From: a virus
Length of the DNA: 63,746 nucleotides
Direction: 5' to 3' (one strand)
IMG/VR virus record: IMGVR_UViG_3300007734_000746
Coordinates: 1-63,746 of that record
The position numbers and the translations under genes were made by a program. This document shows positions 6,005-51,226 of this stretch, piece by piece. Within the stretch, counting starts at the first letter, position 1. Every line of letters starts with the position of its first letter. The notes beneath the pieces are model-generated. The model made no database searches. It saw only the letters and a list, made by a program, of their open reading frames with translations, and was not told where the DNA came from.

Positions 6005-6181
6005 TTATTTCATGCCTTTGAGGGTTTCAGCAAGACGCGCTCTTTTGCCCATTAAACCAGGTTTTTTAGCTGCTGACTTTAGTTTAGACGCTGGGATTGT
6101 TTCGCCCTTTTTAACGCCTAAACTTTTACGCAAAGATCCTGGTTTTTTTATAGCGCCCGCGATCCAATTTTTAGTGGTCAT
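6005..6181 (-). CDS. Short basic protein (58 aa)
   Basis: A short gene with ATG at 6181 and TAA at 6005, filling the gap between the HNH gene and the adaptor gene. The product begins MTTKNWIAGAIKKPGSLRK and continues with KKGETIPASKLKSAAKK and a KRARLAETL helix. Proteins with this signature (a low-complexity Lys/Gly start, then RARLAETLK) are familiar in phage virion blocks. Function unknown. Confidence 0.7.
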   Translation of the reverse strand: MTTKNWIAGAIKKPGSLRKSLGVKKGETIPASKLKSAAKKPGLMGKRARLAETLKGMK

Positions 6182-6578
6182 ATTTACGGCTCCGTGTCAT
6201 GTTGCAATGTTTATGCGCAATCTGCAAATTTTCTGCGCTGTCGTCTTTACTGTACCAGTACGGAACTTTGTGGTCGATATGTAAATCCGTCAAATTTGTA
6301 AAATCTAGCCTAACGCCGCACAAAGCACAATTATCGCCGTCTCTTTGCCGCAACAGCGAAATCACCATGCCACGCCATGTCTGCGGTGTAACCCTGTTTT
6401 TTATCCCAGCAGCTTCGCGTTCCTTGCGTTGCTGTTTATTTCTTTCAAGAATACGTTCTTTGTTTTTTGCGTAATATTCTTTGAAATACTCTGGGTTTTG
6501 CTGTCCTTCGACACGGCTTTTCCCGTGCTTCGTATAAGAAGCTCTTGGTTGCTTGTCCGTGCCTCTAACTTCAGCCAT
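6171..6578 (-). CDS. HNH endonuclease (135 aa)
   Basis: The N-terminal basic helix (YFKEYYAKNKERILERNKQQRKERE) is the linker typical of phage HNH proteins. The core has a CALC pair at about residues 95-98, then HIDHKVPYWYSK-x4-NLQIAHKHCN-MTR, giving the H-N-H residues and the second Cys/His pair of a zinc-supported HNH domain. It is the second free-standing HNH gene within the virion block. Probably a homing endonuclease; it is not a terminase-associated HNH by position. Confidence 0.85.
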   Translation of the reverse strand: MAEVRGTDKQPRASYTKHGKSRVEGQQNPEYFKEYYAKNKERILERNKQQRKEREAAGIKNRVTPQTWRGMVISLLRQRDGDNCALCGVRLDFTNLTDLHIDHKVPYWYSKDDSAENLQIAHKHCNMTRSRKYDH

Positions 6579-16857: not shown

Positions 16858-16877
16858 CTTTAACTCCTGTTAATGTT
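16856..16877 (-). promoter_or_regulatory. 22-bp near-palindrome, copy 1 (overlaps wHTH start)
   Basis: Minus strand reads AACATTAAC-AGGA-GTTAAAGTT, arms of nine with one mismatch. The spacer supplies the Shine-Dalgarno AGGAG and the right arm ends in the TTG start codon of the wHTH gene. Either a repressor operator or an RNA hairpin that displays the ribosome site in its loop. Confidence 0.75.
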
Positions 16878-16882
16878 TATCT

Positions 16883-16904
16883 AACTTTAACATCTGTTAA
16901 TGTT
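16883..16904 (-). promoter_or_regulatory. 22-bp near-palindrome, copy 2
   Basis: Minus strand reads AACATTAAC-AGAT-GTTAAAGTT, 27 bp upstream of copy 1. Tandem operator-like spacing in front of the wHTH-terL transcript. Confidence 0.75.
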
Positions 16905-16909
16905 CCTTA

Positions 16910-16956
16910 AAAAATATATACCCCCCACCCTTTTTTGTACAAAAACACAAGGGGGG
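16910..16956 (-). terminator. Terminator-like hairpin after terS
   Basis: Immediately after the terS stop, six C (16951-16956 complement) pair with six G (16921-16926 complement) around a perfect TTTTTGTACAAAAA palindrome. In the minus direction the stem is followed by TATATATTTTTT. This would end the terS transcript before the terL operon; the U run starts late, so efficiency is uncertain. Confidence 0.6.
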
Positions 16957-17775
16957 CTATTTGTCAAAATCATCCACTATCTCTGATTCTGTTAATGTTG
17001 AGGGGTGGCCCTGTTTTGACTCTGATCGTTTGAGTTCTATTGATGATCGTTTGAGTGGAATAGTATGTGTACGCGCAGCCCCGACGCCCACGCCCGAATG
17101 CGGGGGTGCCCCCTCGGTGGGGTCGCTGGTGGCGTCGTCGTTGGCCGGTGGCTGGGTTTCCGGCTCTGTCTGTCCGGCAGCTGGCGAGCTGGGAGCCTGG
17201 GCGCCGCGTATCTCGGCCAGTAAATCTAGTGCATCATCCGGCTTAACTTCGGTGGCGTCTACCGCTATGGTCTGGAGCCTGGACAATAGGCGCGTGCGTA
17301 TATCTTCGGACCGGCTAACAGTCGTTATCTCTTTTCGCTCCACGAACGCGCCCACTTCGAATAGGCTACCCAGTAGCTTGAGACATTGGACGCGGGACGC
17401 TGGGGGAAAATCATCATCTAGCGAGTGCTGGACCAGCTGCTGCACTAACAAAGCCTTCAATTGTGCAGGGGTTCGGTGTTTCTCCGCCTCTATTGCCAGC
17501 TTATAAGCCTCTATCTCACGCTTTACCCTAGCATCCGCTGCTAGCTTATATGGTGCCGTCACTATCGTGCTGGGTGCTGGGTTGGCGTTGTATACATCCC
17601 TATACGCTTTAGCCTTACTAGTACCCATCGCTACCGACTCTGCGAATTTACGCTGCTTAGTGGTCAATGCGGGTTTTTTCCCTGCGCCGCTGCTCAGTAG
17701 TGACTCTATGGGGATTGTGTCCAACCCCTGCCGGATTTGCGCCCTTGTTAGTTTCTGTGTGGACTGTCTTGCCAT
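16957..17775 (-). CDS. terS: Terminase small subunit (272 aa)
   Basis: Residues 36-65 (ALTTKQRKFAESVAMGTSKAKAYRDVYN) match the DNA-binding helices of Terminase_2-type small subunits, followed by a helical oligomerisation region. The C-terminal ~90 residues are Pro/Ser/Thr/Glu-rich and probably disordered, making it longer than typical. It recognises the packaging site and loads TerL. The gene is more GC-rich than terL and is separated from it by a terminator-like hairpin, two palindromes and the wHTH gene. Confidence 0.8.
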   Translation of the reverse strand: MARQSTQKLTRAQIRQGLDTIPIESLLSSGAGKKPALTTKQRKFAESVAMGTSKAKAYRDVYNANPAPSTIVTAPYKLAADARVKREIEAYKLAIEAEKHRTPAQLKALLVQQLVQHSLDDDFPPASRVQCLKLLGSLFEVGAFVERKEITTVSRSEDIRTRLLSRLQTIAVDATEVKPDDALDLLAEIRGAQAPSSPAAGQTEPETQPPANDDATSDPTEGAPPHSGVGVGAARTHTIPLKRSSIELKRSESKQGHPSTLTESEIVDDFDK

Positions 17776-33488: not shown

Positions 33489-34679
33489 TTAGTTTCCTTT
33501 CACGCAGAGTACCTGCTTTAGTTGGTGGACAACTTCAACAAGGTCGGTTTGGTTTGCCATTACTTGGTCGATGTCTTTGTAGCTGGCTGGGATTTCGTCG
33601 ATGACGCCCTCGTCTTTGCGGCACTCAACTCCCACTGTTTGTGCCACCAGATCACTGAGGCTAAACCTTCTCTTCGCTTCGGCACGCGACATGCTGCGAC
33701 CTGCGCCATGTGAGCAAGAGCAGTAAGACTGAAGGTCTCCCTTGCCTCGGACGATGTAGCTTCTTTGTCCCATGCTGCCCGGAATAATTCCCAGATCACC
33801 TTCTCGGGCTCGTATGGCTCCCTTACGAGTAACCCACATATTGCGCCCAAAGTGATTTTCTCTTTCGACATAGTTGTGGTGGCAGTTGATTGCTTCCTGT
33901 GTGATGGTGAACGGTTTGTCGATGCGCTGCTTCATAGCTTCAAGCACTTCAGACATCATGCGGCGGCGGTTTTCAAGCGCATAGTTCTGCGCCCAGCCCA
34001 CAGCGTACATGTAGTCATCAAAGTCCTCGGTGTTCTCAGGGAAGTACGCAAGGTTGTCATCGGGTAGCGTGATAAAGAACTGCTCCATCTGGCGCTTGGC
34101 CTTGGCAATGTAGTGCGTACCAATCATGTTGCCGATACCACGGGAGCCCGAGTGCAACATTATCCAAACGTCTTGGTTCTCGTCGATGCACACCTCAATG
34201 AAGTGGTTGCCCGAACCGAGGGAGCCCATCTGACTTGCTGCCTTGGCGTGGAATTTATCGTAGTCGCCCTTGTACAGTGGGTCGATGACTGTGCGCGTCA
34301 AGTCGGGGGTTAGCTCCCCAATGTCCGTGCTGTCATCGTGCGCTCCACCTACGCCCAGCGGTACGCGCCGTTCAATCTCATCGCGCAAAGGCTTCAAGTT
34401 ATCAGGCAAATCACTGGCCTTGAGGGATAAGCGCACAGCGTTCATGCCGCACCCTATATCGACACCCACAGCGGCGGGAATGACTGCACTTTCCGTGGCG
34501 ATTACTGTGCCCACAGTGGAGCCAATGCCCGCGTGTACGTCAGGCATACAGGCCACCCCATTGCTATTGATAAACGGCAGGCGGGCAAGGTTCTTTAGCT
34601 GGGTTAGGGCTGATGCTTCCACCTCGTCCGTCCAGATTTTGATAGGGCGTGCGCCCTCGTCTTGGATTACTTGTTTCAT
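33489..34679 (-). CDS. rtcB: RtcB-type RNA ligase (396 aa)
   Basis: All RtcB motifs are visible: DVHAGIG (47-53), DIGCGMN (74-80, metal Cys), GSGNHFIE (155-162), HSGSRGIG (176-183), CHHNY (267-270), and SHGAGRSMSR (323-332) whose His is the guanylylation residue; it ends QLKQVLCVKGN. RtcB joins 2',3'-cyclic phosphate or 3'-phosphate RNA ends to 5'-OH ends with GTP and Mn2+, and in phages could reverse host anticodon-nuclease cuts. It lies between a lipoprotein and a mini-gene, 1.5 kb from the structured region at 36.2 kb. Confidence 0.95.
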   Translation of the reverse strand: MKQVIQDEGARPIKIWTDEVEASALTQLKNLARLPFINSNGVACMPDVHAGIGSTVGTVIATESAVIPAAVGVDIGCGMNAVRLSLKASDLPDNLKPLRDEIERRVPLGVGGAHDDSTDIGELTPDLTRTVIDPLYKGDYDKFHAKAASQMGSLGSGNHFIEVCIDENQDVWIMLHSGSRGIGNMIGTHYIAKAKRQMEQFFITLPDDNLAYFPENTEDFDDYMYAVGWAQNYALENRRRMMSEVLEAMKQRIDKPFTITQEAINCHHNYVERENHFGRNMWVTRKGAIRAREGDLGIIPGSMGQRSYIVRGKGDLQSYCSCSHGAGRSMSRAEAKRRFSLSDLVAQTVGVECRKDEGVIDEIPASYKDIDQVMANQTDLVEVVHQLKQVLCVKGN

Positions 34680-35851: not shown

Positions 35852-36192
35852 TTGCTTTGCTCCTTATTGCGTTTGTAATAATTTTTTGAGTAGGCTGCTC
35901 TTTTTGCGCGCAAAACATTTTTGTTTTTTGCGTACCACTCACGTTGGTACTTGCGCTTTTTTTCCTTGGCCGCGATTTCTTCCGCGCTTACCTCTTTTCT
36001 GGTAAACACAGGTTCACCCTCCCCGCGAATAGGTGCGGCGGCATATTTGTTAAGCGCAAACGTTGTTGCCTCTAGATTTTTTATCCGTCTTTCCAGCTTA
36101 TCAACTTTATCAACCAACCATCTGATGGTCTGACCCTGGGCTTTCAAATCATCACTCATCTCTTTTGCTATCTTGAAAATGTTCCAACTCAT
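35848..36192 (-). CDS. Coiled-coil protein with HNH-like basic tail (114 aa)
   Basis: Residues 1-55 form a coiled coil (DDLKAQGQTIRWLVDKVDKLERRIKNLEATT). The end is very basic with KRKYQREWYAKNKNVLRAKRAAY, like the linker region of HNH nucleases but without any HNH core, so it may be a remnant or a nucleic-acid-binding protein. It is the first gene of the minus-strand accessory block and lies directly beside the large structured region. Confidence 0.6.
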   Translation of the reverse strand: MSWNIFKIAKEMSDDLKAQGQTIRWLVDKVDKLERRIKNLEATTFALNKYAAAPIRGEGEPVFTRKEVSAEEIAAKEKKRKYQREWYAKNKNVLRAKRAAYSKNYYKRNKEQSK

Positions 36193-36682
36193 TTGCTTTC
36201 TCCTAAGTTAAAAAGGTGAGGGTACTCGCTGCACTAGCGCTGCGTTTTAGGATGTTGGACCGGTTTCGCAACACTAGCATCCGCTTTCCCCTCGTAAACA
36301 TCATACCACATGAATTCCAAGCATATCAACTGTTGCATCATCAATGCTAAGCCCTCTTACCCGTTGACCCTCCCTCCCCCGGTTTTTGGGTGTTGGATGG
36401 CTAACGACTCTTTATCAAGGTGTTTTGACTGGTTTTTAAGCAGCCTAACGGCAGACCGGACTGCCGCCCTCCCCTGGAATCCCGATAAAGCCAGTTCTCA
36501 CCGGCTTGTCGATCATCTCCCAGCGTACTAGGGTATGTGTCTTTACGACAACCTTGTTTATTCCTTTTGGCTTGCGCTACTTCGGAGGTGCGGGTCACAC
36601 CGAGTTTTTTGTCTTTTCTTCCACGCTGGCGATACAACCACTTGCTAACGGATGGAGTCCGGTCGCAGCCGCAAACGAAAAA

Positions 36683-36743
36683 AGCCGTTACTACTGCACT
36701 GGGTCGTTCCCTCCTAATGGAGGCCAATGCATGAGTAACGGCT
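36683..36743. repeat. Long composite hairpin within the structured region
   Basis: Perfect ten-pair outer stem (36683-36692 with 36734-36743), inner TGCA/TGCA, TGG/CCA across one C-A mismatch, and a terminal CCTCC-TAAT-GGAGG hairpin. It is the strongest single inverted repeat of the region. Confidence 0.9.
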
Positions 36744-36823
36744 CTAAACCTGTTGTGAACGACTACAACGGTTATCACTATAACGCACTTTTTGCTTTTC
36801 GGCAATAAGTACTAAAAAATATT

Positions 36824-36886
36824 TGTTGGTGTCCTGCCTTGAACTTTACCGCAGGTTGAAAGTCTCAGGCTTTCGCCACACCAACA
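36824..36886. repeat. Three-way junction element 1
   Basis: Outer nine-pair stem TGTTGGTGT/ACACCAACA encloses two five-pair hairpins, CCTGC/GCAGG (13-base loop) and GAAAG/CTTTC (7-base loop), with two- and three-base joining strands. Confidence 0.85.
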
Positions 36887-36965
36887 CGGCTGGGGACTGG
36901 TTTGTCAGACGATGTGTCTGCTGGTCACCGGCAGCTTTCCCGATAAGACCAATCCCCATGCGTGT
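36884..36965. repeat. Three-way junction element 2
   Basis: Stems ACACG/CGTGT, TGGGGA/TCCCCA and TGGTTT/AGACCA stack around single mismatches and enclose CAGAC-GATGT-GTCTG and CTGG-TCA-CCGG hairpins. Its first three bases are shared with element 1, so the two may be alternative or coaxial. Confidence 0.8.
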
Positions 36966-36973
36966 TAGCTTTC

Positions 36974-36995
36974 AACTCTAACATCTGTTAATGTT
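36974..36995 (-). promoter_or_regulatory. 22-bp near-palindrome, copy 4
   Basis: Minus strand reads AACATTAAC-AGAT-GTTAGAGTT, one further change in the right arm. It lies between the terminator of the 37057 gene and the structured region, so it may control the minus-strand transcript that starts here. Confidence 0.75.
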
Positions 36996-37023
36996 AAAAG
37001 AACCCCCCAGTCTCCTAGGGGGT
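36996..37023 (-). terminator. Terminator-like hairpin after the 37057 gene
   Basis: In minus-strand RNA, ACCCCC...GGGGGU (six pairs, ten-base loop) is followed by UCUUUU. It would end the transcript of the nuclease-like gene just before the palindrome copy 4. Confidence 0.6.
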
Positions 37024-37056
37024 AAGGGTCTTTTTAGGACCAAGGAGAAAGCAAGT

Positions 37057-37371
37057 TTATTCTACATGAATAATTTTTACTTGCCAACGGTTGTCCTTTT
37101 TCTGCCAGCCGTGGACCTCTATCTTGATGCCTGACTCCCTGACTATGTCCAGGTTCTCATGCTCTAGGATCTTCTTTAGCCGGGAAGATGTGTTGTTCCA
37201 GCTGGTGGTCTGCACGCCGATTACCGCCCCCTGGCCAAGGCACAGGATGTCAATGAAACCGGCGAAGTCATTTTTACGTTTTGTAAAAGAGTTGTACCGC
37301 TCCACTACCTCGGCATAGAAGCCGTTGTCCCTCATGTACTTGAGACTGCGCTGCGTTGTAGTGACTGCCAT
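37057..37371 (-). CDS. Restriction-endonuclease-fold-like protein (104 aa)
   Basis: MAVTTTQRSLKYMRDNGFYA then EVVERYN, KNDFAGFIDILCLGQGAVIGVQTTSWNNTSSRLKKI and a C-terminal VHGWQKKDNRWQVKII strand. The E...GFIDIL-x7-IGVQTT run is the layout of small PD-(D/E)XK-fold (VRR-NUC/HJR-like) proteins, with Gln replacing the usual E-x-K. Activity is uncertain. ATG 37371 preferred; a frame to 37434 is possible. It points away from the plus-strand exonuclease genes. Confidence 0.6.
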   Translation of the reverse strand: MAVTTTQRSLKYMRDNGFYAEVVERYNSFTKRKNDFAGFIDILCLGQGAVIGVQTTSWNNTSSRLKKILEHENLDIVRESGIKIEVHGWQKKDNRWQVKIIHVE

Positions 37372-37455
37372 AAATATTTTCCCAAGTTGTTGCAAGACAT
37401 GATACACTGTGGGTACAATGTGTTGCCCCACCACCTAATTCTACAGGAGAGACAT

Positions 37456-40781: not shown

Positions 40782-41052
40782 GTTGCTGGATGCTGCGCGT
40801 GAGTTGCCCTGCCAACATTGTGGTACGCAAAATGGTACGGTGGTGGCGGCTCACAGCAATCAACTGCGGGACGGCAAAGGCCGAGGCCTCAAGGCGCACG
40901 ACTACAGGATTGCATCACTCTGTTACAAGTGCCACTCTGACCTGGACCAGGGCACCCACATGAGCAAGGCCGAAAGAATTGAGCTGTGGGAGGATGCACA
41001 CCGCAAGACTATCGGACTTATGTTTGAACGCGAGATTATTGGGCTGCTTTAA
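40765..41052 (+). CDS. HNH-type nuclease, DUF1364-like (95 aa)
   Basis: Starts MYRNRKLLDAARELPCQHCG, then VVAAHSNQLRDGKGRGLKAHDYRIASLCYKCHSDLDQG. The CxxC ... AHxN ... KA-D ... C-x2-CH layout is the small recombination-type HNH family (DUF1364-like). Probably resolves or nicks recombination intermediates. The longer frame from 40687 lies inside the previous gene. Its end overlaps the giant gene's stop tail-to-tail by 17 bases. Confidence 0.75.
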   Translation: MYRNRKLLDAARELPCQHCGTQNGTVVAAHSNQLRDGKGRGLKAHDYRIASLCYKCHSDLDQGTHMSKAERIELWEDAHRKTIGLMFEREIIGLL

Positions 41053-44000
41053 CCTTATCGTTAAAGTCTTTCATGGCTTTAATCCTCATCTCTTCAATAC
41101 GCCGAGCATTCTTTGTATCGTTTTTATCAAGATACATTTTCTTCTCTTTGTTAAGTTTAGAAATTCTGTTTTCTACGTTATTGGCTTGTTGCCATAACTT
41201 AGATTCAGGATTTGCTTTTTTGTACTCTTCAACAGGCTCTTTGTTTTGTATGCGCTTTTTGATTTCATGCTCATACTCAGCCATTTGAGATATGTTGTCG
41301 TAAAACTTAGCTGAGATGGCAGCCGGTGTTTTAGTTTCCCCGTACAGTTTTCCAACCACTGGGATCTTGTACGCGGGAACTTCTTCTCCCTCGGCTGCGG
41401 CTTTAATAGATCCAACACCCTTAATTACTTCTCTGCCTACGCCGCCAAAGTACTGTCCAGCCAAGTAATCTATTTCATCAGCTGTTGGGCTAACTAATCC
41501 CTTGGTGTGTTTTGTCCCCATTGGAGATGTAATGAAGTTTAAAAACTCAGCTATTCCTTGGCTAATGAATGTAGCTGTAGGACGAGAGCGCTCATATCCA
41601 GGCGTTGGCTGGGTGGCCATATCCTTCTTATAGATCGGACGACCAAACGCATCTTTGTTTGCTGAGATTGCAAATAGTGGATCAAACGCGGTTGGCGCAA
41701 TCATTTGGGTAAAGCTACCAGCACCCAACGGATTAAATGAATCAAGAATTAATGATCCAATGCTTAGAGCTTTATCCCCAAGACCTTGATTGCTCTTAAG
41801 CAGCCCGCCTTTGATAAGCACAGCCTCAGTCAAGATGCGGCCAATTCCTGGGAACACATTGAGTCCTGGGGGCATTGGCAAGATGATGTAGTTGTTTCCT
41901 GCAAATGGGATTGGAATGATCAGGTTCTTGTCCTTCAAAAACTCCGGAGGATCTCCATCATCGTACCCATTTAACGCCAACGCAATTGCTTGAATGACGC
42001 CCAGGGCGATACCGCCAGCAATGATCTTTTTGCCCATTGGCCCGTTTAGGGTTTGTATTAAGCGAGCAGTTCCTTGGACGGATGCATTGATAAAAGCATA
42101 CAAAGCCTGGAAGGTTGGGGAAGCAGCTCCTTTGCGGTTAAAGTTAACGGTCAACTCTTTAGCAATAGACGCAGCCTTTTGTTCACTCAGACCTTTCTCA
42201 AGCGCAACTTTAAACGCCGACAAGCGCACAGCGTTTTCCATTGCATCGTTGTAGTCAGAGAGCCAATCAAAAAGCTTTTGTGTGGCTTTTTTAACATTAC
42301 CCCTGTTGAGCCGCTTCATTTCCTGCTCAACAATATTTACCTTTTCTTTTGGCGCGCCAGTCCTCATGCGCTCAACAAACTTATCAAATGACTCGCTTTG
42401 ACCGCTGAACTGCTTAGCAAATCCAGTGGTGCCTCCGGCAAGTCGCATTTGATCAAACAAATCTATTAAAGCTTGTTCTTCTGGAGATGAGGCTGGCTTT
42501 TTCCTCAAGCTTTTCCAGATAGCAAACATTGCTGGCAGGGTGCCTTTTAAAACTTCTTTTTCTTTCCCGGCAATTTCTGTCGTTGAAAGATTGAAGGCAG
42601 CGCTTTGTACGTCACGGGTCATGTTCCATGCGCCAAACACTGGGTTGAACTGCGTATTGATAGATGCAATCCAACGTGTTACCGCGCCGATATTACCCAA
42701 GACAAAGCCAAGTTGGTCAGAGTCCAGATTCTTCAGCGACATAGCCATGCGCATGGCACGCTCATCTTTAGGATTAAAGATGATGAATCGGTCTTCCCCA
42801 TTGATACGAACAGGGAACACGTTCTTGCTGTTGTATTGCGCTGGGTTAACGTCATAACGCACAAGTCCCGTGGTCTTGTCAATCGACGGGGTTTGCAGCG
42901 GGCGAATAAGGCTTTCTGCATCCTGAATAGTCAAGCCAAGGCTAACCATCTCTTGAATGAGTTTGGCCTTATTCTTAATCGCATTAGGATTAATCGGCAA
43001 CCAGAACTTTGGATTAGGGTTGGTGATGGCCAATGCATACAAAGCCCTGCCAACTTTTGCCTGCTCAGATCTGCGAATTGCTTTCTCGCGCTGCATTGCA
43101 ATGTTGGCCAGGATATCTTTAACTGGTTTAACGGAACCTACCGCACGCTTAGATGCACCGCCTTTTGTTCCTACTCCGCCAACATATCCAGAACCGGTGT
43201 GTACAAAGTCTAGGTCATCACGCTGTAGTGGGACGTAGTGCTTATAAGTTTTGTTCCATTGGTCAATAGTGTCCTGAGTCTCAAGACCACCATCAACCAA
43301 CATCTTCTGCGTTCCATCAATGATGTCATCAATCTTGGCAGCAAAGCGCTCCAGCTTGGCTTTCTCAGCGGCTGGTAAGTTGGACAAGTAATCCTGGGCG
43401 TCAGTTGTTTTAATTCCTGAGCCGGTATCCTGAACATCAGGAGAAAGATTAATCTTGTTAATCTGTTCGTTGCGCTCTTGTGCATGGCGGTTGTGCAAGT
43501 ACGTTTCGAGCGCCTCTACACTTATGCCCTCACGCTTCATTTGCTCAAGCAGCGGACGGAAATCATCTTTCAAGAAATCCAAAATGCGCTCAGCAGAACG
43601 CCCGTGATAAAGAGTTTCTTTTGTATAGGCGTCCAGGCGCTCATCAATCTGGCCAACCTTTTCATTGATCCTCTCAATTACACGCTTGGTGTCTATCTGT
43701 TTATCTGCGCCTTGATAGATAAGTCCATCTGTAAAAGATGGCTCAACCGTATCCCAAAGGGCTGTTGGTGCTGCATTGCCTTTATAGTTTTGGATGGAGA
43801 GATAGTATCCTTCGCCCAACATCTCTCTCGTTACAAACTTGCCGTCAGACTTAGCTAGGCTATCTAGCGCACGGATGATGGAGGCATCAGACTTCAATCC
43901 AAACAGCGACTTGATCTTCTGGCCAAACTCTTTGAGCCAATTCTTCAGACGCGCCAGCAAGCCGCCTTGTACAGCGTCATAGCGGGCTTTAACAATGTCA

Positions 44001-47000
44001 GAACCATTTACAGCCCAGAACTCAGATGGGTTGAAGTACTCATAATTAGCTACTGGAACCATGCCAAGCTTAAGCATTTCCATTGCAAAATCTTCGCTGG
44101 AACCGCGTTTTTGCAGAGCTTCCAGTAAAGACTTTATTTGCTCATAAGTTTTTTCTGCACCCTTGGGAACCTCTATGTTGGCTATATTGCCGTCGCCATA
44201 GTGGGCATCCATGAGTGCAGCAAAGTAAAGCTTTTCATTTGGCGTCTTGGCTGCTTTGGCAGCTTTTGCAAGCTGAGACGCCCAGGCTTTACGAATGGCT
44301 TGACGTATTTTGGTAGGCATCATTCTCTCAAGATGATGCAATATCTCGTGTGTAGCTGTTAAATTAGAGGACGCATTTTTAATAATTGTTGCGATGCGGT
44401 AAAAGGAATCATATTGACCGCCTTGGCCAGCCTGACCTTTTCCAATAATGGATATACCTAAGTCGCTGACAAGATCCTCGTTCTGCCCCATAAACCAGAC
44501 AGCCAGATCACGAGCTTCGCGCGACATATCTCCAGCCATAACAGCTTCATTCAATCTCTTTTGAATGTGCAAGAACCCACGCTTGCGCTCGCTCGGTTCT
44601 TTCTCAAGACGCTGCTCTTCATCAGCGGCAATAGCAGCATCAGCCTCCTCAACAAATTTTTCATCTGTTATGCGGCCATCTTTGCGCATCCTGTTAAGAG
44701 TCTTAATGGTGCGCTTCAAAGAAGTAGAGCGCTTCTCTCTTTCTTCATCGGTGTAGCCTTGAATGTCGTAGAAGGTTGGCTCTTTTGGTTCTTTGGGTTC
44801 TTTCCCTGGAGCCTCTTCTTCAGTCTTAACCTCAAGCTTGGCCAACTCTGTTTCACGGCCAGTTTGCTTGCGTTCAACACCAGGCTTTGGAGCTGGGACT
44901 TGCTTCTCTGTCACGGTTGTCTTGGTGACTGGCTCAACCTTTTGGCGGATGATGTCATCGCTGTACATAGCTTTACCATTGATAAAGTCCATGACGTTTG
45001 CGCCGTTCTCGGGAACGATAAATATCTTGGCGCCATCCATCTGGTTAAGGTGGTTGGTGATTAGGTACTTGAAGGTTTCCTTGTTGACGTTAATACAGCC
45101 AAAGGAATAGCGCGAGTCTTCTGCTCCAGGCTTCTCTAGCGCAGCCAGGCGTTGCTTGGCGTCAGTCTCATGCGTCCATACAGAGTGCATGATGGTGTTG
45201 GAGTACGGGCCGTTGCTTCCCATGTGGGACTTGTCCAGCACAAACACTTTGCCAAAGTCATAGTCGCCAGCGGTATAAGCCTCACCAGCGCTACGCTTAG
45301 CATCACGCAGGCCCAGATCAAACACGCCAGCCGGAGTAATCCTATTGGCTTCAATCTCATTGTCGCCATGCATGTAGTCGCCGATAGCCTTGCCAAACAA
45401 AGTTTTGCTTTGGAGCAATAACGATCCGTCAGGGTTGAATAGGTAAGTGTTACCGCTTCGCTTGTCGGCAACAATAAACAGCTTGTCCTTTTCTTTAAGC
45501 TGCTTTTCCAGGGCCGGGTAGATGACGCCATACGCACGCTTAGCGGCATCAGACATCGACTGCGCTTCTTTCGGCAGGTCTTTTATCACCTCGCTGGTCT
45601 TGATGTCGTACTGGGGAACTGCAATTGTGTACGGCTTGCTGACAAACTGAGGGTTAAATACGATGGCCACAGACAGCACGCCGTTAGCAATCTGCTTGAT
45701 GATTGCGCGGATCTTGCCGTTAACAGCTTTAGCGCCCTGTGTAATGAAGGCAATGACATCCTTGCGTAGGCTGTCCAGGAACTCAGTAGAGTCACGCTTG
45801 GCGCCGTACTGTGACTCAAGGCTCTTCTTCTGGTCTTCGCTTAGCTTGGAGGTCTGGTCAGTCAGCAAGGCGTGCTGCTTCTCTTCGCCTATCTCTGTGA
45901 ATTCACCCTCAATGGTGTATGGCTCATTTGTCAAGCGAGGCGCAGCTGGCTTTTCTGCTGGCCCAAGCACCTCTACCTCTGGCTCACGAACCATAACTTT
46001 GTTGGAGTCTTCTGCAAAGTCAAAGCCAAACTTTTTGTACAGATCTTCCAACTGCTGGCGGTCAAGGCCAAAATTCTTTTCTTTAATGTTTACAAGCGGT
46101 ACCGGCTCAATGTACAGAGTAACTCCATACTGGTCAGCAGCATCAACAATGTTTTGAAGCGCCTCATTGGCTTTGCCTTGGTTGCGCTTGGCCTGGTCCA
46201 CCAATAGAGCATTGATCACCAGATCGGTAGATTCACCTTGGCCGGTTAAGACGGCATTCTTATCCTGGAACAATACAAGCTGGGGTGTAAGAGATACGCG
46301 CACGCCATCTTTCTCAAACGTGCGGTGAGGATCGCCACCCTTGTCAACATAGGTGCGTGGATCTTTAAGTGCCAATACCTCATAGCCGTCATTAAATAGA
46401 ACAGCGGCCATAGGGTAGCGCAGGCTTCGGCCCTCTGGCGTTTCTACTGGCTCAAGCTTAACTCCTTCTTGTTTGCCTATGTACCCAAACTTTTCAGCAT
46501 TTTTTACTGACTCTGCGTCCATTGATAAAGGAATATTTTTAACCCCAGAATCACGCAGATATGCATATCTATGTCGCCCATCTCCAAAAACGATAGCTCC
46601 ATCTTTGTCTACAGAAACATTTGGGGCCTCTATAGATTTTGCATCTTTAATAAATTCTGCAAATTTTTTATACCGGCCTTCTATTCCACCTTCTCCACCT
46701 TCGCCAACATATTGCCATGTTGTTTTGGAAAAGGCTTTATCAAAAGCATCAGTGTTAACTTTAACTAATTGATTTTCTTTTTCCAGCCGGTGCATTGTTA
46801 CTGGAACATCTTTTCCATTAACTTGAATAACATCTTCAAGTTTTGCCGGAGCTTTTTCTTCCTGCTCCTCCTGCTGCCCACCAATGATGTCGCGGGCTAT
46901 ATTAGCAGCCTCTTCTAAGTCACCGTCATAGTACTTGTCTTGGAACAAAGAGCTGTCAATGGCCTCTTCATCAGCTTCTGTAGCGCCCTCAAAAGCTTTA

Positions 47001-50000
47001 GGATCAACGCCATAGTAAGTGCGAGTAAGGCGCTCAGCCGGAGTCATGCTCTCGGCATTGTTAGCCATGAAGAATGCGTAGGCAAAACCTTCAGGCGTCA
47101 GAGAACGGGCGTATTTATTCTTGCCGCTAATCTTGTGGATTTTTGAACCTTCAGTTGGCTCAACTGGAGCCATAGGAAGATCATTTTGAAAGTTACCCCA
47201 CAGCAGGGTTTTCTTTGTGTATGGATCGCCGTAGAAGTTAGGATCAAACGTCAGGTGGGCTGGCGGCAAATTGTTTAGCTTTGCGATTCGCCCAACAGGA
47301 TTTTCCATTGCCCAAATTTTTGGCTGGAGAAATTCCACTGTGCGCAATACTTGTTTTACCAACTCATTGCTTAATTCAGTTTGTCCTTTAGCATCTTTTG
47401 CCGCCCAAAACTGAGCGCCGGATGACGCAAAGTCTGTGCATGGTGGGGCCGCAAGGATGCCCCAAATATTCATATCGCCAAAGCCCTCATTAAGAAGATA
47501 CTCTGCGCTAAAGTCGTTAATATCTTCGCCGGTCTGTATATCAAAAGTCCATACGTTATAGCCAGCCTCACGCCACGGCTTAGACCACTCACCAGAAGCG
47601 TCAAACAGGCTCATAATGGTCCTGTCAAAATTCTTATTGGTCTTACCCTGGCGTGCGGCTTCCGCCTTCCATTCTTCAATCTGAGCCTTGGCCTCTTCAG
47701 GCGCCATCATTTCAGTTGGCTTTGGCTTAGCTGGCTTTTCAGCCGGATGCATTAGCGCGTTATAGCGAGTATCGTAGGGATTTTCTTCTTTTGGAGTTTC
47801 GCTTAAAAGCTTTCCAACAGTATCAGAGTCAGCTTCAAAAGGAACAACCTTAACACCGTCTTCTGTAATGTCTAGCTCTTCCTCAACCTTCTCTTCCTCT
47901 TGAGCAAAGATATCCTTCTGCCCACGCGCAGCCGCGACATCGGCAGCACGATCACTGCCGGTTAAAGTAAATTCACCAACCTCTTTGTCGGCTTTGGCTT
48001 TTTCTTCAGACTCTTTTTTGGCTTTAGCTTCGGCGGCTTCCGCTTCCTCTGCCTTCTTGCGATACTCTTCTTTGGCCCTTAATCCTTCTGGGGTTGGGCG
48101 AGTAAGCGCTTTTCCTTCATCTGGCTCAGTAGATGGAATCTCGCTTTCGGGCTCAACGCTGCGAGCATTGATTTCACTCTGTCTTTTTTCGTCGGCTGCT
48201 TCTTGAAGTTCAAGGTTCTGCTCCTCAATAGTTAGGTAGTCGTTAATTAATTTCTCAGCCTCTTCAACAGAGCCAAAGATTTGCTCAATCTCTACCTGTG
48301 ATTCGTAGGGAATGTAGTTCTGGTTGCGTACTTGATCTTTGATGTACTCTTCCGCCTCCTGGCCGTCAAAGCCTGGAACGTTAGAGCGCATTTGGAACGG
48401 CAGGAAATCATCTAAGTCTCCATCCGAAACCATGTCTGCGATTGACTTGCCACTAGATCCTTTTTTGGCTTGGAGCTTCTTCTGGTAAACCTGTGGGCTC
48501 TTACCAAATAACTCAGCTATATCACTAGAGCCAAGCTTTCCAACCAAAGCAGTCCATAGGCTACCCCCAGGCTTTCCTTTGATTTTGCTAACAGCCTTCT
48601 CACCTTCGCTAACCCTTTGCTCCGCCTCGGTAATTTCCTGCGGCCGTGGAACAGCCTTGCGGATTACTTGTTGGGCTTGGGTAGCAGAGTCGTTGGCGCG
48701 CTTGATGGAAAGATTAAATTTATCTGCATCAGCACGCTTGTATTCGTTTTGAATGGCGTAGTGATCTCGCAAAAGCTTCAATCCATCAGACAATAAATTG
48801 CTGTATTGAGTTTTTAAATTACCCAACCCTAGAGGAAGTTTTGTATCGTTAACTTGATAGCCAAGATTATTAAGGGCTGTAATTACATCCTGTATGGACG
48901 CACTTACATTATCAAAAGCAGTCTTTGCCTCGGGTGAGGCTGTTTTTTGAAATGTATCGTAATACTTTTGCTCATTAGCCTCCAAGAAGTCAGACCACTT
49001 AAAGCCCTCTTCTTTGGCCTCTGCTTTGCCTTGCTTTGCTTGAAACTCTTGCAGCTTTTCTTTGTAAAAAGGAATAGATTCTTTTTTAAACATTCCTCTT
49101 TTAACACTATTGCGCACCGTATCTGCAAAATCTTTTTGCCCAGCAGCCTCTATTTGTTCAGCCAAATCTAAAGCTTCTTGTTGGTCCGGCGTAGGATTGC
49201 TTAAAGTTTTTTCACCAATCTCTCCTATTATGCGATCTCTCTCAGCTTGGATTTTGTCCAACTGATCTTGGCTAATACGCCCTTCCCTGAAAGCTTTCTT
49301 TGCATTAAAGCTAACAGTATTAATGATGGTGTATTGCTCTTCAATAGGGCGGTCTTTAAGATTGCCAAGCGTCAATCTTTCAGCAGGGGCTGCGGGCGCT
49401 TGTTCTCCTTGCGCTTCTGCTTGCTTGGCTTTAGGGGTTTCAATGCCACTTAGGGCTCCTTCAATAGAAACAGGGGTTGGGGTAGTTGGAGCTTGTTCCT
49501 CCACTTGCTTGCGAACAAATGGGCCGGCCTCCGCTACTGTTGGCTGGATTCCGGCGGCTTTAGGCTCTTCAACATTAACAGGTGGTAAAGTTGCGACTCC
49601 AACAGGAGCTTGTCCCAATGCCTCACGCAGCATTGCCTCTGTATCCATAGATTCAGACGGCGCAGCGGTAAGGCCAGCAATACCAGCCGGAGGAGTAATA
49701 GGAGCACCGCCACTTGGAGGGGTTGGAGGCTCATTTGGACGGGCTGTAGGAGGGGTTATTTCTAGACCAGGAACATTAGCTCGGACGTTTGTTCCTTGAC
49801 GGACGCCTGCGTCTGGGCTTAGTGATTGGCGTACTAATTGATCTATCGCTTCTTGATTGACAGTGGCGCCTTTTGCACCCTCTTCTAATGCCTTTGCAAG
49901 CACCTCAGCGCGGGTTTGTTCGCCTGTTTTGGCACCATAAACCCTGGCCCCAGTAGTAACAGCACCGCCACCTAGCGCTCCAGCAGCCTCCGCCGCAGCA

Positions 50001-51226
50001 GCATTCAAAATGTCTTTAAGATTCTTTTCTGTTAAGAATTCTTCCTGTTCTTTTTCACGAACTTGGCCGGCAATCTGTGTGGCTTGTTGAGCGCCGCCGG
50101 TAAGGAATTCTTCAGCCATTTGCTTGGGAACTTCTTTGACGCCAGCTTTAAAGGCTTGCTTCTTAGTCTCTCCAGCAACAACTTCTTTAAGCCCGCGCTT
50201 AGCCAATGCAGCATCAGGACCAAGTACGCTGTCCAACATGCCATTGATGATGCCAACAGCCAGGGTGGTATCGCCAGTCTTTGTAATGTAATCAATGACA
50301 GTATCAGCCCGCTTGTTCCGAGGCATGTCTTTGATTTGATCTTTCAATGCGCTAAGGCGGTCATCCACAGCCTGGGCCGTGCCCATGCCAGCCCCAAGTA
50401 AAGCAACTCCGCCAGGCCCGGTGGTTACCGCTGCCAGCATGATAGGAGCCATTTGAACTGCGCCAGAGCCTACGTTGTAAGCGAGCCAGTTGGCAAAGTC
50501 TTTGACGTTTTCTACGTCTGTTAGGTCAGTTGTACGTCCTTTGTACTTAACTGAGTCTTTTTGGTATTGGTCTAAAGTCTCCAAAGAGGCAGAGACAAAA
50601 TCCTTGCGCCTGCCAATCTCATCGACTGTGCGGTTACGAATCTTCTCGCGCATAGCTGGATCAGCGCCCAAATACGCACGCGCTTGCGATGTAGAAATAT
50701 CCAATCCGCGCAACTGGTCTGGGTTGGTAATCTCACCAGTCTCAATCTTGTTAAAGAGGTCAAGCCTTTTTTGCACAGTGCCAAGCGCGCCAACATCTTT
50801 GTAGATGCCAGCTTGCTCCCACATGGATGGCAGGGCAATTTTTGCAGCGCTTTCCACGCCTTTGCCAAGCTCTTCCATAGGGCGAGCTTTCGATGGCGGA
50901 CGAGGTGCTTTGGGCGCAGCTGCCACAGGCTCGGCGCCTGGAGCGCCAATAGCGCCCATTACTTGATCCTCTGGGGAAAATATGGGCTCAGCTTGCGGCG
51001 CAGTAAATGGTTTGGCTAGAAGGCTTCTTATGCCAGCACTTGATGGAGTGGCTGTAGCGTAGGCTTGCTCTTGAGGAGACATAGCCGTATTGCCTGCAAA
51101 ATCAGGAACCTTTGGCGCAGGAGTAGGCGGCTGCTTTTCAAGGTAACTTAGGATTTTTGCCTTAGCTTCAGCCGGGTCCTCAGTGGTAATGTCGTACTGC
51201 TGACCCTTGTACTCATAAATGGGCAT
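41036..51226 (-). CDS. Giant internal 'polyvalent' virion protein (3396 aa)
   Basis: Approximate layout: residues 1-35 YEYKGQQYDIT head; 255-285 hydrophobic Ala/Gly segment; ~450-640 Pro-rich linker; ~640-1130 helices; ~1200-1340 C5-methyltransferase-like domain (SLFDASG..., APPCTDFASSG ~1261, MENPVGR ~1307); ~1470-1580 ParB-like segment (GDGRHRYAYLRDSG); ~1600-1740 GNAT-like (RNQGKANEAL); ~1860-2070 L,D-transpeptidase (HSVWTHE, YSFGCINV with Cys ~2041); ~2230-2310 zincin (HEILHHLE ~2292); then long helices and a C-terminal membrane-active segment ~2830-3150 (large-polyvalent-protein type). Such proteins are packed in the virion and ejected; domains may cut the wall or protect DNA. Occupies 16% of the genome. 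Confidence 0.85.
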   Translation of the reverse strand: MPIYEYKGQQYDITTEDPAEAKAKILSYLEKQPPTPAPKVPDFAGNTAMSPQEQAYATATPSSAGIRSLLAKPFTAPQAEPIFSPEDQVMGAIGAPGAEPVAAAPKAPRPPSKARPMEELGKGVESAAKIALPSMWEQAGIYKDVGALGTVQKRLDLFNKIETGEITNPDQLRGLDISTSQARAYLGADPAMREKIRNRTVDEIGRRKDFVSASLETLDQYQKDSVKYKGRTTDLTDVENVKDFANWLAYNVGSGAVQMAPIMLAAVTTGPGGVALLGAGMGTAQAVDDRLSALKDQIKDMPRNKRADTVIDYITKTGDTTLAVGIINGMLDSVLGPDAALAKRGLKEVVAGETKKQAFKAGVKEVPKQMAEEFLTGGAQQATQIAGQVREKEQEEFLTEKNLKDILNAAAAEAAGALGGGAVTTGARVYGAKTGEQTRAEVLAKALEEGAKGATVNQEAIDQLVRQSLSPDAGVRQGTNVRANVPGLEITPPTARPNEPPTPPSGGAPITPPAGIAGLTAAPSESMDTEAMLREALGQAPVGVATLPPVNVEEPKAAGIQPTVAEAGPFVRKQVEEQAPTTPTPVSIEGALSGIETPKAKQAEAQGEQAPAAPAERLTLGNLKDRPIEEQYTIINTVSFNAKKAFREGRISQDQLDKIQAERDRIIGEIGEKTLSNPTPDQQEALDLAEQIEAAGQKDFADTVRNSVKRGMFKKESIPFYKEKLQEFQAKQGKAEAKEEGFKWSDFLEANEQKYYDTFQKTASPEAKTAFDNVSASIQDVITALNNLGYQVNDTKLPLGLGNLKTQYSNLLSDGLKLLRDHYAIQNEYKRADADKFNLSIKRANDSATQAQQVIRKAVPRPQEITEAEQRVSEGEKAVSKIKGKPGGSLWTALVGKLGSSDIAELFGKSPQVYQKKLQAKKGSSGKSIADMVSDGDLDDFLPFQMRSNVPGFDGQEAEEYIKDQVRNQNYIPYESQVEIEQIFGSVEEAEKLINDYLTIEEQNLELQEAADEKRQSEINARSVEPESEIPSTEPDEGKALTRPTPEGLRAKEEYRKKAEEAEAAEAKAKKESEEKAKADKEVGEFTLTGSDRAADVAAARGQKDIFAQEEEKVEEELDITEDGVKVVPFEADSDTVGKLLSETPKEENPYDTRYNALMHPAEKPAKPKPTEMMAPEEAKAQIEEWKAEAARQGKTNKNFDRTIMSLFDASGEWSKPWREAGYNVWTFDIQTGEDINDFSAEYLLNEGFGDMNIWGILAAPPCTDFASSGAQFWAAKDAKGQTELSNELVKQVLRTVEFLQPKIWAMENPVGRIAKLNNLPPAHLTFDPNFYGDPYTKKTLLWGNFQNDLPMAPVEPTEGSKIHKISGKNKYARSLTPEGFAYAFFMANNAESMTPAERLTRTYYGVDPKAFEGATEADEEAIDSSLFQDKYYDGDLEEAANIARDIIGGQQEEQEEKAPAKLEDVIQVNGKDVPVTMHRLEKENQLVKVNTDAFDKAFSKTTWQYVGEGGEGGIEGRYKKFAEFIKDAKSIEAPNVSVDKDGAIVFGDGRHRYAYLRDSGVKNIPLSMDAESVKNAEKFGYIGKQEGVKLEPVETPEGRSLRYPMAAVLFNDGYEVLALKDPRTYVDKGGDPHRTFEKDGVRVSLTPQLVLFQDKNAVLTGQGESTDLVINALLVDQAKRNQGKANEALQNIVDAADQYGVTLYIEPVPLVNIKEKNFGLDRQQLEDLYKKFGFDFAEDSNKVMVREPEVEVLGPAEKPAAPRLTNEPYTIEGEFTEIGEEKQHALLTDQTSKLSEDQKKSLESQYGAKRDSTEFLDSLRKDVIAFITQGAKAVNGKIRAIIKQIANGVLSVAIVFNPQFVSKPYTIAVPQYDIKTSEVIKDLPKEAQSMSDAAKRAYGVIYPALEKQLKEKDKLFIVADKRSGNTYLFNPDGSLLLQSKTLFGKAIGDYMHGDNEIEANRITPAGVFDLGLRDAKRSAGEAYTAGDYDFGKVFVLDKSHMGSNGPYSNTIMHSVWTHETDAKQRLAALEKPGAEDSRYSFGCINVNKETFKYLITNHLNQMDGAKIFIVPENGANVMDFINGKAMYSDDIIRQKVEPVTKTTVTEKQVPAPKPGVERKQTGRETELAKLEVKTEEEAPGKEPKEPKEPTFYDIQGYTDEEREKRSTSLKRTIKTLNRMRKDGRITDEKFVEEADAAIAADEEQRLEKEPSERKRGFLHIQKRLNEAVMAGDMSREARDLAVWFMGQNEDLVSDLGISIIGKGQAGQGGQYDSFYRIATIIKNASSNLTATHEILHHLERMMPTKIRQAIRKAWASQLAKAAKAAKTPNEKLYFAALMDAHYGDGNIANIEVPKGAEKTYEQIKSLLEALQKRGSSEDFAMEMLKLGMVPVANYEYFNPSEFWAVNGSDIVKARYDAVQGGLLARLKNWLKEFGQKIKSLFGLKSDASIIRALDSLAKSDGKFVTREMLGEGYYLSIQNYKGNAAPTALWDTVEPSFTDGLIYQGADKQIDTKRVIERINEKVGQIDERLDAYTKETLYHGRSAERILDFLKDDFRPLLEQMKREGISVEALETYLHNRHAQERNEQINKINLSPDVQDTGSGIKTTDAQDYLSNLPAAEKAKLERFAAKIDDIIDGTQKMLVDGGLETQDTIDQWNKTYKHYVPLQRDDLDFVHTGSGYVGGVGTKGGASKRAVGSVKPVKDILANIAMQREKAIRRSEQAKVGRALYALAITNPNPKFWLPINPNAIKNKAKLIQEMVSLGLTIQDAESLIRPLQTPSIDKTTGLVRYDVNPAQYNSKNVFPVRINGEDRFIIFNPKDERAMRMAMSLKNLDSDQLGFVLGNIGAVTRWIASINTQFNPVFGAWNMTRDVQSAAFNLSTTEIAGKEKEVLKGTLPAMFAIWKSLRKKPASSPEEQALIDLFDQMRLAGGTTGFAKQFSGQSESFDKFVERMRTGAPKEKVNIVEQEMKRLNRGNVKKATQKLFDWLSDYNDAMENAVRLSAFKVALEKGLSEQKAASIAKELTVNFNRKGAASPTFQALYAFINASVQGTARLIQTLNGPMGKKIIAGGIALGVIQAIALALNGYDDGDPPEFLKDKNLIIPIPFAGNNYIILPMPPGLNVFPGIGRILTEAVLIKGGLLKSNQGLGDKALSIGSLILDSFNPLGAGSFTQMIAPTAFDPLFAISANKDAFGRPIYKKDMATQPTPGYERSRPTATFISQGIAEFLNFITSPMGTKHTKGLVSPTADEIDYLAGQYFGGVGREVIKGVGSIKAAAEGEEVPAYKIPVVGKLYGETKTPAAISAKFYDNISQMAEYEHEIKKRIQNKEPVEEYKKANPESKLWQQANNVENRISKLNKEKKMYLDKNDTKNARRIEEMRIKAMKDFNDKVKAAQ

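Follow-up and report, generated by a model that had tools for sequence, protein, structure and literature searches.

A conserved structured RNA with a variable loop-bulge pairing and exchangeable cores in lake phage sequences

Introduction

The IMG/VR record IMGVR_UViG_3300007734_000746 is a 63.7-kb virus sequence, referred to here over its full length of 63,746 nt as the window. Its region 36193-37056 is situated between two minus-strand ORFs (Table 1). An earlier note on this DNA had described the region as lacking credible genes and rich in strong hairpins, and had proposed a large structured RNA of the GOLLD or ROOL type or of a new class. This raises the question of whether the region encodes an RNA and, if so, of what kind.

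In the opposite direction, from 37500, there are genes for a Cas4-like exonuclease and an Erf-like annealing protein. Further on along the minus strand are RDF-like and RtcB genes, followed by ParB-like, helicase and primase genes. The RtcB RNA ligase, of the tRNA splicing ligase family, is encoded at 33489-34679 (minus strand) in the operon after promoter P2, ~1.5 kb downstream of the RNA described below. No tRNA genes were found in the window. An ORF of 3396 aa (41036-51226, minus strand) is very large for a 64-kb phage.

Table 1. Features of the locus in window coordinates, in 5' to 3' order of the minus strand
Feature	Position	Strand	Remarks
Conserved 125-aa gene, no family	37057-37434	-	Upstream of RNA locus
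Hairpins/junctions ending in ACACCAACAAATATTTTTT, terminator-like	36824-36965	-	Outside conserved RNA
Promoter P1, TTGCCG-17-TATAGT, sigma70-like	36777-36805	-	Position conserved among leaders
Hairpin H1 (GTTGTAGTCGTTCACAAC)	36752-36769	-	Loop 7-mer GUCGUUC at 36757-36763
T1, long hairpin shaped like an intrinsic terminator	36684-36743	-	
T1 bulge GAACGAC	36703-36709	-	7 bp complementary to H1 loop (pseudoknot or kissing pair)
U6 run directly 3' of T1	36678-36683	-	T5-T8 after T1 in the leaders collected from relatives
Site S3	36662-36668	-	Second stretch complementary to H1 loop in many relatives
Module M1 (CTCC..GTTAGCAA..GTGGAAGA)	36616-36664	-	Common to core types A, C and E
Core A, RNA domain of several helices, closed by CTC/GAG	36352-36614	-	~300-nt core
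Long-range helix of core A, CAAGGU/ACCUUG	36551-36556 with 36416-36421	-	Covarying
GGGGGAGGGAGGGTCAACGGG, G-rich, nearly invariant	36360-36380	-	Fits G-quadruplex pattern
Promoter P2, TTGATA-18-TATGAT	36300-36329	-	Core 3' end, ahead of downstream operon; conserved
First gene after P2	35848-36192	-	114 aa, hypothetical protein; gene start 36192

Folding strength and absence of coding

The minus strand of the region folds to -325 kcal/mol (z = -10.2) and the plus strand gives z = -4.8; none of 20 shuffles reaches so low an energy. When composition is corrected for by regression over 1016 folding segments across the whole record, the region supplies the three best, with 36876-37125 ranked first and 36751-37000 second, both on the minus strand. 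The strong hairpins of the earlier note are real.

The absence of credible genes was likewise borne out. ORFs of the region are not conserved, for example that at 36401-36805 (minus strand, 134 aa, TTG start). Of the indels among homologous cores, 85% have a length that is no multiple of 3, and the longest stretch without a stop ranges between 44 and 105 codons. Protein coding is ruled out by these frame-breaking indels and varying stop-free runs.

Relatives of the locus

The two flanking proteins, used as queries, led to 24 and 80 loci, and iterated nhmmer places the RNA in 76 of 106 loci (duplicates included), with 36 distinct full-length copies; pattern scans added further relatives. All relatives carrying the RNA are IMG/VR contigs, dozens of which keep a structured RNA at the same place. 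The collections of isolated phages and of plasmids that were searched yielded no relative of the RNA. The bacterial genomes searched gave five pattern matches; nhmmer found short, motif-confined local matches in two and none in the other three. Host or prophage copies are rejected for these genomes, the bacterial matches carrying at most short local similarity. By exonuclease, the nearest isolates (39% identity) are Planktothrix phage Pag-Yong1 and others, and the Pag-Yong1 region that was compared has neither the divergent layout nor a match to the leader.

Of the 44 relatives scanned for tRNA genes, four have them (Pro and His, or Met) just upstream of P1: L090 (3723-3888), L084 (2575-2740), L162 (8156-8230) and L003 (1689-1763). 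This is the place where the window has hairpin junctions.

The leader and its loop-bulge pairing

The conserved RNA extends from about 36770 to 36352 on the minus strand. The junctions to which the earlier note drew attention, 36824-36886 and 36884-36965, are real as hairpins, but lie outside this RNA, upstream of its promoter, and only the closest relatives retain them. In relatives P1 is TTGACA/TATAAT-like with a spacing of 16-19. The leader that follows consists of H1 and T1. T1 is a stable hairpin with a U-run, conserved with compensatory changes, and has the sequence features of an intrinsic terminator or attenuator. With the structure read by eye from the alignment, pseudoknot included, 98.5% of cells are paired in 21 leaders (slid controls, 32-45%), and 22 of 42 pairs have changed on both sides. 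A leader covariance model trained without the window's sequence finds the window at 54.7 bits (E 8e-12).

Every one of the 54 distinct leaders matches its own bulge with its own loop over 6-10 bp, and 25 different loop sequences are represented; mismatched partners have a mean match of 4.6. In a tree-based covariation test (our own implementation) the pseudoknot pairs are the top matches. The variable loop and bulge columns include ranks 2-5 of 528 for number of changes, counted on a tree built without the pseudoknot columns, and stem columns, with about 5 changes each, change less than these fast columns. Pairing in the variable pseudoknot columns is strictly Watson-Crick. Loop and bulge change fast, yet stay complementary. 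The pair could be purely structural and intramolecular.

Around the leader, further exact occurrences of the loop 7-mer are no commoner than in the control, but bulge-like copies are about twofold more frequent, which led to S3. This site is just upstream of M1, past the terminator, and is complementary to the loop in many phages, by up to 9 bp in L058. When loops are reassigned among types, S3 fits them less well than its own: none of 5000 permutations scores as high, in a test that corrects only partly for relatedness. In the window 4 of 7 positions match the H1 loop, and S3 is therefore regarded as a family-level feature; a putative third site in the window's own phage is a weak suggestion.

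Three repeated or neighbouring elements are recorded here as separate observations. CTGTTAATGTT occurs 11 times in the window (at most 1 mismatch; 1.7 expected), at sites that include 16867-16999, 36985-36995, 5378, 20784 and 49571; its surroundings near P1 look palindromic, and there it is possibly an operator. At 37087-37002 (minus strand) a hairpin resembling a terminator, ACCCCCTAGGAGACTGGGGGGT TCTTTT, follows a promoter-like TTGGCA-17-TAGAAT, and the two may mark a further small RNA. AACACTGCTNNATGTGAGC recurs within module X after T1 in L095 and L106 and within the terminator-like element before P1 in several loci.

Core A and the exchange of cores

Core A has high sequence conservation. 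In 22 cores, 91.3% of cells pair, a figure that includes one mis-registered helix (hand-made, columns 83-88) which is to be disregarded. Its helices have 79 double-changed cells against 22.8 in shuffles, and most of them were recovered independently by RNAalifold. The long-range helix is 98.5% paired, with four of its six pairs changed on both sides. Read on the minus strand, the helices hold 437 G-U against 61 A-C, and counts based on alifold lean towards the predicted strand; the hairpin GGUGUGACCCGCACC holds an invariant U-G pair. Helix covariation and the excess of G-U over A-C thus argue for an RNA transcribed from the minus strand.

The same leader is followed by different cores. Of 66 distinct loci, 48 have core A, nine B, three D, and two each C, E and F. 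Cores other than A thus form at least five types (B-F); cores are unrelated in sequence between phages, and the leader is shared. In locus L015, whose neighbouring protein has 85% identity to that of the window, the core is B. Among the core types only A has the G-rich motif. No Rfam family is matched by those loci with other cores that were searched. In L015 an ORF directly 3' of core B (6170-6508) reads by eye as a small HNH endonuclease, which may help the exchange of cores.

Comparison with known RNA families

Rfam searches of the window and 23 relatives at the gathering score matched neither GOLLD, ROOL nor any other family, with nothing sensible below that score; over 35900-37300, GOLLD and ROOL also gave no match at E up to 10. 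tRNA matches were obtained, which shows that the search works. The earlier proposal therefore divides: membership of GOLLD or ROOL is not supported, and a large structured RNA, perhaps of a new class, stands on covariation, wobble asymmetry, the covariance-model match and conservation across dozens of contigs. That note had also named absent covariation, ordinary folding energy and protein homologues as signs against such an RNA; all three were looked into and none was seen. The locus is almost certainly a real, unclassified structured RNA.

GOLLD and the present RNA are both large structured phage RNAs with kissing-loop-like covariation (PMC12286853). Neighbouring tRNA genes, a feature of GOLLD, are absent from the window and present in four of the 44 relatives scanned. 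GOLLD is conserved 3' and variable 5'; the present RNA has the reverse arrangement, a constant 5' leader with a variable 3' core. GOLLD forms a 14-mer RNA cage. ROOL is likewise a phage RNA of comparable length with pseudoknots, but its model does not match, and an internal terminator-like hairpin and exchangeable cores are found here. The phi29 pRNA resembles the present RNA in being roughly 100 nt long and in having two loops that complement each other and vary in sequence from phage to phage; the present locus differs in fold and gene context and has no Rfam match. HK022 put RNA, which suppresses termination, is by description also a folded nascent transcript close behind an early promoter of a phage (PMC9378689), but the leader here itself carries a terminator-like hairpin.

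The nearest known systems in logic are the P4 CI RNA and Gifsy-1 IsrK, although the C4 and IsrK Rfam covariance models do not match. P4 CI RNA causes termination by pairing with seqA and seqC in the transcript to which it belongs, and IsrK is a short RNA that targets a read-through RNA (PMC4825925). The likeness consists of a short phage RNA that shares its locus with a longer transcript, either read-through or precursor (both predicted here), an element complementary to other sites of its transcript, and termination as the control point (likewise predicted here). The differences are that loop and bulge covary here within one leader, and that the leader is followed by a large structured core instead of mRNA. 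The short RNA acts in trans in the C4/IsrK systems and putatively so here. An extra target site in the transcript, as in those systems, has a possible counterpart in S3, significant over the family and weak in the window.

Proposed mechanism

From these features and the analogy with P4 CI RNA and IsrK, an attenuation switch made of phage RNA, in which the loop carries a self-specific code, is proposed, to which we assign a probability of roughly 0.4. We infer transcription, termination at T1, action in trans, an effect on the operon and the core's role as follows. P1 would start the leader on the minus strand, the leader would fold into H1 and T1, and the H1 loop would pair with the 7-nt T1 bulge. 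T1 would halt most transcripts, leaving a small RNA of about 90-130 nt with a pseudoknot. Some transcripts would continue past T1 and add the structured core, which ends at P2, and P2 would serve the downstream operon, including RtcB, the ParB-like protein, helicase and primase. For the core itself no separate promoter was seen, and read-through from P1 is the simplest route by which it would be transcribed; a fully efficient T1 would keep transcription from P1 out of the core. The loop 7-mer would act as a self-specific code, its partners being the bulge of T1 and, for many phages, also S3 just past the terminator. Acting in cis or in trans, the short RNA may adjust how the long RNA terminates, is read through or folds, with an attenuation or superinfection switch as the outcome.

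Alternative explanations

A stand-alone structural RNA, either a ribonucleoprotein or an RNA-only oligomer and in logic like GOLLD/ROOL or phi29 pRNA, is a possible though somewhat doubtful reading. The core would be its working part, and the loop-bulge pairing would hold one molecule or neighbouring molecules together; the loop would change because co-infecting relatives must not cross-assemble. Strong covariation, the strict Watson-Crick pairing of the variable pseudoknot columns and the large size with the core included agree with this, as do the tRNA genes that four relatives have beside the locus; GOLLD and ROOL are reported from such a setting (PMC12286853). A terminator-like hairpin with a U-run midway in the presumed long RNA is, however, difficult to reconcile with it, as are core sequences that are unrelated between phages.

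An origin of replication, which the earlier note had considered for the divergence point, or a primer RNA is unlikely. Here the P1 transcript would form an R-loop at GGGGGAGGGAGGGTCAACGGG and prime replication, with T1 as the control point, a ColE1-like logic. The motif is nearly invariant, the divergence point adjoins recombination genes and none of 30 window proteins scanned matches a DNA polymerase family, but the confinement of the motif to core A speaks against an origin, and the GC skew of the window follows gene direction with no origin signal beyond it. It is very improbable that the locus is a conserved DNA element, with single-strand hairpins or protein-binding sites, rather than an RNA. 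Promoters and hairpins are present and the sequence of core A is highly conserved, as such an element would have them; the excess of G-U over A-C in minus-strand helices and the invariant U-G pair tell against it. Chance hairpins or an unrecognised protein gene, for which open frames of up to 134 aa might be cited, have practically no probability, being already contradicted by frame-breaking indels, covariation and the covariance-model match.

Significance

Very few classes of large structured phage RNA are known and their functions are open. The handles offered by the present locus are unusually direct: 25 natural loop-bulge variants, a constant leader, and at least six cores swapped in otherwise related phages. 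Function is therefore testable by simple swaps. Perhaps the attenuation switch extends to RNA-based self-recognition of phages, a new system in which a terminated small RNA would carry a fast-diversifying 7-nt code, matched to its own T1 bulge and to a site past T1, that would pick the co-infecting relatives to be regulated and control read-through into exchangeable structured cores; this is speculative and on the whole unlikely. If the code does act in trans, it would constitute an RNA-only specificity system between competing phages.
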